Part shown: positions 57,050-64,000 of the stretch, in pieces
Layout of the letters: the number at the start of each line of letters is the position of its first letter
Numbering within the stretch: position 1 is the stretch's first letter
Assembly: GCA_030424975.1 (NCBI GenBank)
Contig: JAUHVY010000001.1
Coordinates: 1,299,093-1,363,092 of the forward strand
Direction of reading: 5' to 3'
DNA: 64,000 nucleotides
From: Alphaproteobacteria bacterium
GTDB taxonomy: Bacteria; Pseudomonadota; Alphaproteobacteria; Micavibrionales; Micavibrionaceae
The notes under the pieces: generated by a model
Seen by the model: the letters and a program-made list of their open reading frames with translations, nothing else
Database searches by the model: none
Told to the model about the DNA's origin: nothing
Translations under genes and position numbers: made by a program

Positions 57050-57880
57050 TTTTTAAATTATAATTAGTCATAATTACCTCATCATAGAAACCAAATGCCC
57101 CTTAATTATTGCATCAATCATATTTTCATCAGTATTCAAAGGGAAAGAAACAATATTCTGTTTGGCCGATAGAGAGCTGTCTTGGTCAGGTCTATAAATC
57201 AGAGTAAAAAGAGTAATTATTGGTACTTCTGATATCTTTTTACTTTTTGTCACCCCTAAAGTCACACTTACCACTAACGTACCGGGATCGCGCGTCAGCG
57301 GATCATAACTCTTAAACTGCTTACTAAATGCTTGATGATCATAAAACACTTTGACGGCAGGGTCAGTACATCCATATGGGTTTTTGCCTGAAGCAAGGAA
57401 ATCCCTGAAAAATGATGCGCACCCTTCCGAAGAAAAACGCCTTGTATATACTTCAACAATATTTTTTTCTACATTATCAGGCTTTAATGACTCGGGTATT
57501 TTAGCTTCATCAAGAAGCCTCATAAAGCGACTGTTAAATATGATGTAAATTCTGTCTACATCCACAAAAGCAGAATTTCTCATATTTTTATAATCAGAAG
57601 CCTTTGCTTGGATGGGTATCATCAAAGCAAACCCCATCATCACCAATAAAATAAAATGTTTAAAACGCATAAAAACCTCCCCCTAAGCAAAAACACAACC
57701 AAAAGATTGCATACACATCACAGATCGTAAATTCATAACACGATAATTAACAGCATTTTCCCGAAATTTGTAATTGTCGTGTTAAAAAGATTAACATGCA
57801 CGAAAAAGCACCTTGAAAATGTACAATGATTTGCACATTATAGGGACATTAATATAGTGAATGGCACAGCTAAAACCTGC
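57050..57880. repeat. Segmental duplication, copy A
   Basis: This segment (gene at 57074-57670, its upstream region and a remnant of a following start codon) is homologous by eye to 58275-59070. Matching stretches include sequence just past both stop codons, both coding regions, and the upstream region (AAAACACAACCAAAAGATTG in both). The limits are approximate. At 57861 an ATGGCACAG motif resembles the ATGGCACCT start of the gene at 59043 but runs into a stop after 12 codons. Confidence 0.7.
57074..57670 (-). CDS. Hypothetical secreted protein, duplicated paralogue A
   Basis: This 198-residue precursor has a signal peptide (FILLVMMGFALMIPIQAKA). The unrecognised mature domain has two conserved Cys (EGCASFF and NPYGCTDP), the shared phrase SYDPLTRDPGTLVVSVT and FTLIYRPDQDSS. 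It is roughly 70 percent identical by eye to the gene at 58302. GGGGGAGG lies 5 bases before the ATG. It is transcribed away from the following segment. The role is unknown. Confidence 0.82.
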   Translation of the reverse strand: MRFKHFILLVMMGFALMIPIQAKASDYKNMRNSAFVDVDRIYIIFNSRFMRLLDEAKIPESLKPDNVEKNIVEVYTRRFSSEGCASFFRDFLASGKNPYGCTDPAVKVFYDHQAFSKQFKSYDPLTRDPGTLVVSVTLGVTKSKKISEVPIITLFTLIYRPDQDSSLSAKQNIVSFPLNTDENMIDAIIKGHLVSMMR

Positions 57881-58301: not shown

Positions 58302-58901
58302 TTACCTCATCATCCGCATTAAGTGAGCTTTAATAGATAATTGCACCATTTCCTCACTAATATTAATTGGCATCATTCGAAGATCTTGTTTCGCAGAAAA
58401 CGAACTGTCCTGATCAGGCCTGTAAATCAGAGTAAAAAGCGAAACTAATGGTACAGACGTTATTTTCTTGTTATCTGTGGCTCTCATTGTCACACTTACC
58501 ACTAACGTACCGGGATCGCGCGTCAGCGGATCATACATATTAAAAAATTGTTTACTAAATGGCCGATGGTCATAAAACACTTTGACGACAGGGTCAGTAC
58601 ATCCATAAGGATTAGTACCCGTCTTTAAAAAATCCTTAAAGAAGGATACACACTCTTCCGAAGAAAAACGTCTTGTATATGCTTCAACAATATTCTTTTC
58701 TACATTCTCAGGCTTTAATGATTCGGGTATTTTAGTTTCATCAAGAAGCCTCATAAAGTGACCATCAAATATGATGTAAACTCTCTCAACACCATCAAAA
58801 ACAGGGTCTTTGATATTCGCTACATCAGAAGCCTTTACTTGGATGGGTATCATCAAAACAAAACCCATCATCACCGATAAAATAAAATGTTTAAAACGCA
58901 T
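58302..58901 (-). CDS. Hypothetical secreted protein, duplicated paralogue B
   Basis: The 199-residue precursor begins MRFKHFILSVMMGFVLMIPI and has a signal peptide ending VKASD. It aligns end to end with the product of 57074, sharing both Cys and the central YDPLTRDPGTLVVSVTM region. GGGGGG lies 6 bases before the ATG; upstream in-frame codons are open but unsupported. Function unknown; the duplication suggests dosage selection or functional divergence. Confidence 0.8.
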   Translation of the reverse strand: MRFKHFILSVMMGFVLMIPIQVKASDVANIKDPVFDGVERVYIIFDGHFMRLLDETKIPESLKPENVEKNIVEAYTRRFSSEECVSFFKDFLKTGTNPYGCTDPVVKVFYDHRPFSKQFFNMYDPLTRDPGTLVVSVTMRATDNKKITSVPLVSLFTLIYRPDQDSSFSAKQDLRMMPINISEEMVQLSIKAHLMRMMR

Positions 58902-58979
58902 AAAAATCCCCCCAAACAAAAACACAACCAAAAGATTGCATACACATCACAGACCGTCAATTCATACCACGATAAAAGT

Positions 58980-60008: not shown

Positions 60009-60743
60009 CTATGGGATAATTAGGCCGTAAATAATGCTCTTCGCAACGGCATGCGCTTTATTTGAAGCCTGCAAGGCGCGGCAGATACTACGCATGTGCT
60101 TTTTGACCGTATCTTCACGAATATTCAAAATGCCACCAATTTCCCAATAGGTCTTCCCGCGCGAAACCCATTTAAGAATCTCTGTCTCGCGCGCAGTTAA
60201 TTGAATGTCTCTGTTCTCCCGAAAGCCCAGCTTCAATATTTTTTCATGCGTATAGGTCGCAAAAATATGCAAGTAATGCCTGTTGTAATTGAAAAGGTCA
60301 TCAAACGTTTTATGCCCCAAATCACTTGCGACTGAAAACGTTGCCTGAATACTTCCGGGGCCGTGAATAGGAATACTCGCCCCTGAACACATCCCGGCGG
60401 AAATGCTATCGTCGAATAACACCTTTTGCATCTTGGTAATAGAGTAATATTTTTCAATTTCCGACCATGAAAACGGCGTATTTTTCTCCGACGATATACG
60501 CCCGACCATATCATGGCTTTGAAAGTCATTTGCGATGTAATGTTCAACAAAATGCTCAGGATATGTTGTCAAAACAAGCGGTACATCATTTTCACTACTC
60601 GGCCAACGCAACCAATAAGTGAAGCATGTGAAGCCCAGCCTTTCAATTTCGCGCTGTGTTATTTTAACGATATCATCAAGATTTTTTGCATTTTGAATAA
60701 GACCAAGACATGTATCCATGTCCGTGAAATTAACGCTCAGCAT
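60009..60743 (-). CDS. LuxR-type regulator with autoinducer-binding-like domain
   Basis: This 244-residue protein has an N-terminal domain of the autoinducer-binding fold (about residues 20-165) and a C-terminal LuxR helix-turn-helix (LTARETEILKWVSRGKTYWE, then VKKHMRSICRALQASNKAHA). In the binding pocket the TraR Tyr61 and Asp70 equivalents are present (in HFVEHYIANDFQSHDMV), but Trp57 is Phe and Pro71 is Met, while a Trp equivalent to 85 is kept (FSWSE). No luxI-type synthase is visible, so it is an orphan regulator that may sense a different or no acyl-homoserine lactone. Confidence 0.88.
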   Translation of the reverse strand: MLSVNFTDMDTCLGLIQNAKNLDDIVKITQREIERLGFTCFTYWLRWPSSENDVPLVLTTYPEHFVEHYIANDFQSHDMVGRISSEKNTPFSWSEIEKYYSITKMQKVLFDDSISAGMCSGASIPIHGPGSIQATFSVASDLGHKTFDDLFNYNRHYLHIFATYTHEKILKLGFRENRDIQLTARETEILKWVSRGKTYWEIGGILNIREDTVKKHMRSICRALQASNKAHAVAKSIIYGLIIP

Positions 60744-61719: not shown

Positions 61720-62730
61720 TCAGAACAAAATAAGATTAGCGTACAAAATCGCGGAGAATGACAACAAATAAAACAACATAATCGCTAGCGCCCATAACGG
61801 CCCGTTTGTTGCAATAATATGCAAGGAGCCAGCCTTACCCTGAAGGCCGCCCTGCTCGTCATGGCGCGTGGCATACACCACCATAAACACGGTAACCAAG
61901 ACCATAAGATAAGAAAGCAGGTACACCTGGTCAATCATAAGCAAATACCCGACCTCGGGCAGGATTGATGACAGATTCAGCTGTAGTGCGACAAGCGCGA
62001 GTAGCGACGTAATCGTCAGGCCGACACGCGCCTCAACATGAGTAGGATCAAGAAAAAGTGCAAAAACGGCACTACAGACGACAAGTACCAGTGGCAGCAA
62101 GGTTTTTAGCGCTCCTGACAACACCGGCCTTGAAATTTCAACATCTATGCGAATTCTGGAATACGCACTGACATCAGGATTTGACAAATCGCCGAAAAAG
62201 GTTGGATAAGGCTTACCCTCTATCCCCAGCGAAACCTTCTGAATATTATACCCGGGCAGGCGAATATCCGGGTTCAAAGTAACCGGCACATCATCCGCAA
62301 CATACATCAGATCCTCAGCCCCCATTTCCTGATCTTCTACGATCACACTTAACCGTTGTTTATCAAACGGATAGTCAGACATATCAAACTTAGAGCTAAA
62401 TGCGCCTTGATGCCTGATCAGGTTATAGCGACTGCCATCGGGCTGATCTAATGATTGCTCATAAAATACTTTCTCCACATGCCCCTCTGGGTCAAACACA
62501 TTCATAAATTCAAAAGTGGCCGTTGGATCAACATCATCATCGGCCCAGCGAAACCAAACATAAATATCCATCACATAGGCATGGTTCTGAAGATCAATAG
62601 CCTGAATATCATTAATATAGGCACCGACAACAACCTTTCGGGGCTCCGCCGATGCCACATGGGTTGAGAAAACAGCAAAGACGAATACAAGACATGCGAT
62701 GGCGGCTCTGAGGCGATGTAAATCAATCAT
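61720..62730 (-). CDS. Pentameric ligand-gated ion channel homologue
   Basis: This 336-residue protein has the Cys-loop receptor architecture. A signal peptide (to about 28) precedes a beta-rich extracellular domain with a FPFD-type core (FDMSDYPFDKQRLSV at about 115-129, without flanking Cys). Four membrane helices follow: TM1 LLPLVLVVCSAVFALFLD, TM2 VGLTITSLLALVALQLNL, TM3 IDQVYLLSYLMVLVTVFMVV and TM4 LWALAIMLFYLLSFSAILY. Prokaryotic members include GLIC and ELIC, which are cation channels gated by protons or amines. Ligand and ion selectivity cannot be read here. Its ATG overlaps the stop of the secreted gene upstream (ATGA), forming an operon. Confidence 0.9.
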   Translation of the reverse strand: MIDLHRLRAAIACLVFVFAVFSTHVASAEPRKVVVGAYINDIQAIDLQNHAYVMDIYVWFRWADDDVDPTATFEFMNVFDPEGHVEKVFYEQSLDQPDGSRYNLIRHQGAFSSKFDMSDYPFDKQRLSVIVEDQEMGAEDLMYVADDVPVTLNPDIRLPGYNIQKVSLGIEGKPYPTFFGDLSNPDVSAYSRIRIDVEISRPVLSGALKTLLPLVLVVCSAVFALFLDPTHVEARVGLTITSLLALVALQLNLSSILPEVGYLLMIDQVYLLSYLMVLVTVFMVVYATRHDEQGGLQGKAGSLHIIATNGPLWALAIMLFYLLSFSAILYANLILF

Positions 62731-63617
62731 TCAAAAAGGCTTTTCTTGTGGTTTTCCTCTTCCTCTGCCACAGGATTCATATATTCCCTACGGTAAGCTT
62801 TGATGTCATCGGGAAGTTGTGATTTTTCAACAAAGGTAAAACCCAACCCCGACAGCATTTTTTTAAGGCGCGCAGGGTCAAGATACGCACAGCCACGCCC
62901 GCGAACATCCGGCACATCCGTATCAAGTTGACGATGCATATCTTCGCGCACCAGCCACCAGTGATCTTTATCATTGCCGCTGATGTAAATCTGCCCTGCC
63001 TCACCCTCTAATACACCACCGAACCTCAGGAAAAAATCAAGCATCGAAATTTCGGCATATATATGATTGCCGCCGTTATCAGCCTCATTTTTACAAATAG
63101 CACCCGTTCCAAGCTTCTTTGCCGCATGTTTTGATATACCCGCTGCCTTGGTCAACCCGTTAACCATAGGCGGAGTAAATCCACTTCGTCCGCTCATGGA
63201 AAACGCCAGCGCCGCAGACACTGGCTTGGCACGAAAATGCGATAGGATCAGATTATTTGTCCCCTGATCTTTTCGAATCGCTGCGTTGTAAAATGCATGA
63301 AACAAAACCTCAAAATCCGCGCGTATTTTACGTTCAGGCATACCGCCGGATACAGGCGTTTTTTCGCATGCATCATCGAATATAACCACATTATCCCCCC
63401 ATGCATTCCGCACAGAGGATGGTAATGCCAAATAGGTCGGCACAGACAAATTTAAAGGATCCACTGTTTTCAGATCATTGGTTTTCATATACCCCGTGAG
63501 TTGCGCAAGCCTGGCATCTTCGGGACATTGCGAAGCGCCTTGCGCCTGCCCTGCGAATATGCCACCGACAAAACAGAGCATCGTCACATTACGAAGTCTT
63601 TTTTGCATTTTGATCAT
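62727..63617 (-). CDS. Secreted protein of the channel operon, 296 residues
   Basis: This precursor has a signal peptide (VTMLCFVGGIFAGQAQG, cleaved near ASQCP). The mature domain has Cys near both ends (QCPED, ACEK, AICKNE, GRGCAYL), possibly forming disulfides. I recognise no family. ATG 63617 is chosen: it overlaps the stop of the upstream gene in an ATGA, and GGAG lies 8 bases before it. It overlaps the channel gene by four bases, so the two are translationally coupled. It may be a channel partner, a binding protein or an unrelated envelope protein. Confidence 0.8.
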   Translation of the reverse strand: MIKMQKRLRNVTMLCFVGGIFAGQAQGASQCPEDARLAQLTGYMKTNDLKTVDPLNLSVPTYLALPSSVRNAWGDNVVIFDDACEKTPVSGGMPERKIRADFEVLFHAFYNAAIRKDQGTNNLILSHFRAKPVSAALAFSMSGRSGFTPPMVNGLTKAAGISKHAAKKLGTGAICKNEADNGGNHIYAEISMLDFFLRFGGVLEGEAGQIYISGNDKDHWWLVREDMHRQLDTDVPDVRGRGCAYLDPARLKKMLSGLGFTFVEKSQLPDDIKAYRREYMNPVAEEEENHKKSLFE

Positions 63618-64000
63618 CTGCATCGCTCCGTCGCTTTATATTGGTAAAGTTTAAAATCCTGCGTTCCGCCGACAATCGGTACATTAAAAGCGATTTGATT
63701 TTCAACGGGGATATCATCCTTTGCATATCTATATGCCCCTGCAATCACATTATCAGTCAATTCATAACGTGTAGATGTTTCAAGGAAATTATATTCCGCC
63801 TTCGCCCGATCACGAATGGCACGTAATTTCTCACGCGATGGCGGCGTTTCACCTGAACTTTGCAGCAACCCCTCGGCCGGATCATCCAACGGCCAGATTG
63901 TAAGCGATGGTGGCAAAACATTATGCACAACTTCGCACGGATCATAAATCGGTAACTTAAGATAAGCCCCGGGCAATTGCAGATAAATACGGGCGAAATC
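63614..64000 (-). CDS. Partial protein of the channel operon, 5' end outside the window
   Basis: The minus-strand frame is open from the window edge for 128 codons to a TGA at 63614. No convincing start is inside the window, so the N-terminus is missing. The visible part is soluble-looking, with PLDDPAEGLLQSSGETPPSR and a C-terminal KLYQYKATERCR. It forms an ATGA overlap with the secreted gene that precedes the channel, so all three probably share a transcript. No domain is recognised. Confidence 0.7.
   Translation of the reverse strand, partial: DFARIYLQLPGAYLKLPIYDPCEVVHNVLPPSLTIWPLDDPAEGLLQSSGETPPSREKLRAIRDRAKAEYNFLETSTRYELTDNVIAGAYRYAKDDIPVENQIAFNVPIVGGTQDFKLYQYKATERCR

Follow-up and report, generated by a model that had tools for sequence, protein, structure and literature searches.

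In the 64,000-nucleotide window, by which we mean the whole stretch of Micavibrionaceae DNA that was analysed, the minus-strand gene at 61720..62730 encodes a pentameric ligand-gated ion channel (pLGIC, or Pro-loop receptor) of 336 aa. We propose, with a probability of roughly 0.78, that this channel was acquired horizontally from a Caulobacterales-type lineage and that a separate, mobile envelope operon, whose own four genes we designate S, A, B and C, captured it at its end. The sequence directly shows the fold of the channel, the overlaps among the five genes, the A-B-C genes that occur elsewhere with no channel adjacent, and the separate affinities of the channel and the operon. What bacterial pLGICs do in nature is, to our knowledge, not yet settled, and a channel embedded in an operon therefore offers a useful handle on their role; co-operonic genes should, however, be checked for an independent existence before they are named channel partners. 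As a by-product, the analysis brought out a conserved S-A-B-C envelope operon on chromosomes, with relatives of A and B/C found together on a plasmid too. This operon is undescribed, and its proteins are described in none of the family libraries consulted.

A prokaryotic pentameric ligand-gated channel

The channel comprises a signal peptide (about residues 1-28), a beta extracellular domain (about 30-200) and four membrane helices (M1, 203-226; M2, 232-254; M3, 265-293; M4, 296-334). It scored 28.2 bits against the Pfam model Neur_chan_memb (PF02932), just above the cut-off of 28.1, and its match to Neur_chan_LBD lay under the cut-off; NCBIfam TIGR00860 was matched at 1e-19, yet this value is under the model's own cut-off. 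Sequence searches of the PDB retrieved ELIC (4e-14) and GLIC (about 1e-10), and an AlphaFold model based on an alignment of 28 sequences reached a pLDDT of 91.5. When this model was used for a Foldseek search, GLIC and GABA-A receptors were the top folds (E about 1e-21). The YPFD motif, the four helices, Pfam, NCBIfam, the PDB, AlphaFold and Foldseek all agree with the channel layout proposed in the initial annotation, and the structure prediction that it had suggested as a check of the 336-residue protein yielded the channel fold. The product is a typical prokaryotic pLGIC, a protein of a known kind. It is like GLIC and ELIC in its fold, its Y/FPxD loop and its four helices, and differs from them in sequence (about 20% identity) and in being encoded last in the S-A-B-C operon.

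The Pro loop reads Y120-P121-F122-D123, with P121 and D123 invariant among the 28 sequences, and the Y/FPxD loop has been described as the best marker (Jaiteh et al., PMC4795631). The extracellular domain contains no cysteines, and hence not the cysteine pair flanking the Pro loop that is the criterion for eukaryotic Cys-loop receptors. Absence of the Pro-loop cysteines is expected in prokaryotic members. In an alignment to ELIC, E233 occupies the -2' position of M2, where close relatives mostly have E or D and GLIC likewise has an acidic residue. A glutamate at this position predicts cation selectivity, and the pore is accordingly predicted to be cation selective. The pocket of ELIC is lined by F19, E131, F133, Y174 and F187 (PMC3119659); by sequence alignment, F19, E131, Y174 and F187 correspond to Y38, E132, Y175 and Y190 of the channel, and the loop B aromatic F133 is replaced by Q134. 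Because most of the ELIC pocket residues are kept, a putative ligand pocket in the channel is plausible.

A five-gene unit with overlaps at every junction

The channel lies last in a unit with the order S, A, B, C, channel, in which neighbouring genes overlap at every junction. Gene C (62727..63623, minus strand) encodes a secreted protein of 298 aa, which possibly starts at the second ATG and contains two cysteines conserved across the B/C family. Gene B (63614..64000, minus strand) exits the window; when it was read on into the flanking DNA of the window's own genome (contig L002, whose coordinates equal window coordinates minus 55907), it extended over the window-equivalent positions 63614-64702 and encoded a secreted paralogue of C of about 362 aa. 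Beyond the window edge, A (window-equivalent 64695-66587) encodes a membrane protein of 630 aa, and S (66584-67024) a secreted protein of 146 aa. The overlaps are TTGA for S/A, eight bases for A/B, ATGA for B/C provided that C starts at the second ATG, and ATGA for C/channel. Both couplings seen earlier, that of the channel to a secreted Cys-containing protein and that of this protein to a third gene leaving the window, were thus confirmed, whereas the three-gene operon then described proved to be part of a unit of five genes once the sequence was extended.

A nine-pair hairpin followed by a T-run separates S from the preceding gene, and because this terminator-like structure precedes S, the operon plausibly begins there; the scan relied on consensus matching alone and found 12 terminator-like sites in the region against 7.0 (s.d. 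3.0) expected. The gene upstream of the hairpin (L002:11238-14609) encodes a protein of 1123 aa that belongs to no recognized family and has a 49% relative in genome G010. By all appearances the five genes share one transcript, and a functional link between the channel and S-A-B-C in this organism is therefore possible.

Probable separate ancestries of the channel and the operon

Among the other genomes of the window's family, 5 of 104 encode a channel, with about 44% identity to the window channel over the best segment. The closest relatives, with 50-55% identity over the best segment, come from Alphaproteobacteria, Robiginitomaculaceae included (L020-L025). In the tree the window channel grouped with the Caulobacterales-type channels of Robiginitomaculaceae (98 and 99 SH-aLRT), apart from those of its own family. 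A, in turn, is closest to its relatives in G564 and G652, two genomes that both belong to one other family of the phylum. Given these separate affinities in the trees, the channel and S-A-B-C are probably of different origin, and the trees together with the patchy distribution make horizontal transfer the likely cause of the differing histories. A comparison within the genus for an empty site gave no clean one, the BrkB gene downstream having differing surroundings in G001, G009 and G010.

Unlike the window channel in its operon, these closest relatives (L020-L025) are encoded alone or in other surroundings; in L020 and L021, for example, the lone channel gene is flanked on one side by a ribosomal-protein gene and on the other by a gene for an HtrA-like protease. 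In three members of genus g8 of the window's family (L015, L016 and L017), the genes clustered with that of the channel encode a permease, an Rrf2-like regulator and a carbonic-anhydrase-like protein, assignments that were made by eye from reading the sequences. Carbonic anhydrase was considered as a common channel neighbour on account of these three loci and was rejected, as the other close channel loci whose neighbours were read did not show it.

The differing affinities of the channel and A, and the lone closest channels in unrelated surroundings, are also what would be expected if the capture had been entirely neutral. In this stronger form of the capture view, chance alone would have placed the channel behind C, the two would share no role, and the overlap would simply reflect how densely the genes are packed. 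We entertain such hitch-hiking, including its account of the overlap, as a tentative reading that falls short of even odds. Against it, the exact ATGA overlap and the intact state of both pore and pocket point to selection for continued translation of the channel from this transcript. The same overlap is a counterpoint to the capture view as a whole, since the four bases tie the channel to C as tightly as the other junctions are tied, and this speaks for a co-expression that serves some purpose. The combination of a channel with A-B-C was found in one genome only, and a recent functional marriage of the two is possible.

The A-B-C genes and their occurrence without an adjacent channel

Weak mutual similarity links B and C. 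Searched singly, B had no relative among the 104 genomes of the family and C none among the 142 genomes of the order, and neither protein found a relative in viral contigs or plasmids by this approach. Sequence searches of the PDB gave no match for B or C, Pfam searches matched neither protein to a periplasmic-binding-protein (PBP) or Cache model, and nothing convincing was obtained for S, A, B or C in PHROGs and NCBIfam. A structure of C predicted from the single sequence was discarded (pLDDT 36.5). Leave-one-out profiles, however, united B, C and a pair of proteins from the Agarilytica plasmid pSU3 with E values of 8e-6 (C against the rest of the family), 6.5e-9, 4e-12 and 1.5e-3, the next unrelated match being at 0.3 or worse. 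A joint B/C profile detected B and C relatives arranged in tandem in both G564 and G652, with a best E of about 3e-29, and of these the genes in the B position matched window B best and those in the C position matched window C best. As judged from these comparisons, B and C are distant paralogues within one family. Distant single B/C-like proteins with no A were also seen, beside NADH dehydrogenase genes in small alphaproteobacterial genomes and also in genome G620 (L145:7183-8334, L146:6793-7944 and L144:6665-8098).

The A family is widespread, occurring in 19 of the 142 genomes of the order (the window's included) and on 16 plasmids. G564 and G652 have the same order as the window's genome, a small secreted gene followed by A, B and C, but no channel follows and their flanks contain none; their A proteins match A of the window operon with E about 1e-90, and the gene preceding A shows a weak similarity to S (E 0.005). 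On pSU3, the A relative lies beside the two adjacent secreted genes of the B/C family, again with no channel adjacent. A tree was built from 17 A proteins; several of its branches are long, and the grouping calls for caution. The four proteins with B/C neighbours formed one group in it (81/83), and the window, G564 and G652 proteins grouped together to the exclusion of Agarilytica (94/89). It appears from these data that A-B-C is a conserved envelope operon with a life independent of the channel, and that the conserved partner of B and C is A.

Several other neighbours of A were recorded. Plasmid A-family genes in L118, L120, L122 and L123 have genes for coupling proteins, relaxases or integrases in their vicinity, and in many cases a secreted-looking protein is encoded next to them. 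In G652, the gene in the S position before A (L143:10691-12145) carries a glycerophosphodiester phosphodiesterase domain, and in Pseudoalteromonas a separate gene for such an enzyme (L119:5506-6918) directly precedes the A relative. A DUF4852 match of the gene after A in G068 was weak and under the cut-off, and was set aside.

The initial annotation had suggested that the coupled secreted proteins act with the channel. If B and C were dedicated periplasmic accessory proteins of the channel, serving in ligand supply, assembly or modulation, then the ATGA coupling and the common periplasmic location would be readily explained. There is also a precedent, as Tasneem et al. reported in 2004 (PMC549065) that some bacterial channel genes lie in predicted operons together with genes for secreted proteins of the PBP-II and Cache types, contrary to the earlier statement that secreted partners are rarely described. 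Those operons likewise place a channel beside a secreted-protein gene, but B and C match neither family, and the neighbour conserved beside them is A rather than the channel. From 84,980 species genomes, a scan that finds relatives sharing the motifs used gave the best 80 of 98 channel loci from other genomes, the five of the window's family among them and some with short flanks; A, B and C were absent from the flanks of all 80 (tblastn and profile searches). Among the loci searched, B and C were found beside a channel in the window's genome alone, whereas their relatives in G564, G652 and Agarilytica adjoin A-family genes with no channel adjacent. The refuting case named in the initial annotation, that the two genes never adjoin channel homologues in other genomes, is thus what was seen throughout the searches. 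A role of B and C as dedicated channel partners is not supported by these sequence distributions, and we consider it unlikely.

Capture by a separate operon remains the preferred reading, and a mechanism compatible with it can be proposed. A would be anchored in the inner membrane by about three helices at its N-terminal end and two or more at its C-terminal end, with a domain of roughly 400 residues between them, a topology read from hydropathy and cysteines only. The domain carries a conserved cysteine pair (C277 and C282, present in 15 of 17 alignment rows) and for this reason is probably periplasmic. Hydropathy, signal peptides and gene order suggest that B, C and S dock on it. As in other pLGICs, five copies of the channel protein would assemble in that membrane as a homopentamer whose ligand domains lie in the periplasm, and binding of a small ligand in the pocket would open the cation-selective pore. 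In this scheme B and C would be partners of A, and the channel would share their expression and possibly also respond to the same condition as S-A-B-C.

An alternative is that S-A-B-C serves plasmid transfer or a mobile element and that the channel arrived as cargo. The 16 plasmids bearing A relatives would fit such a function, as would the TraM-recognition, relaxase or integrase genes that adjoin A in Neptuniibacter, Agarilytica, Salmonella and Acetobacter, but the A relatives of the order members examined and of G564 and G652 lie among ordinary genes with no recognizable transfer genes, which leaves this alternative improbable. Glycerophosphodiester phosphodiesterases, as a class, release head-group amines. 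That A relatives are twice linked to such an enzyme is a hint as to what the A module may handle. Since, moreover, primary amines are agonists of ELIC (PMC3119659), S-A-B-C might conceivably act as a complex in the periplasm, processing or presenting a small ligand of envelope origin that the channel senses in this organism, a conjecture to which we assign very little likelihood, and no glycerophosphodiester phosphodiesterase is present among the genes of the window operon.

Further observations concern the region downstream of the channel. Two genes downstream of it, on the minus strand at 60009-60743, lies a gene for a LuxR-type regulator with an autoinducer-binding domain. Two secreted proteins that match no Pfam family, encoded on the minus strand at 57074-57670 and 58302-58904, share 70% mutual identity and are the products of a local duplication.
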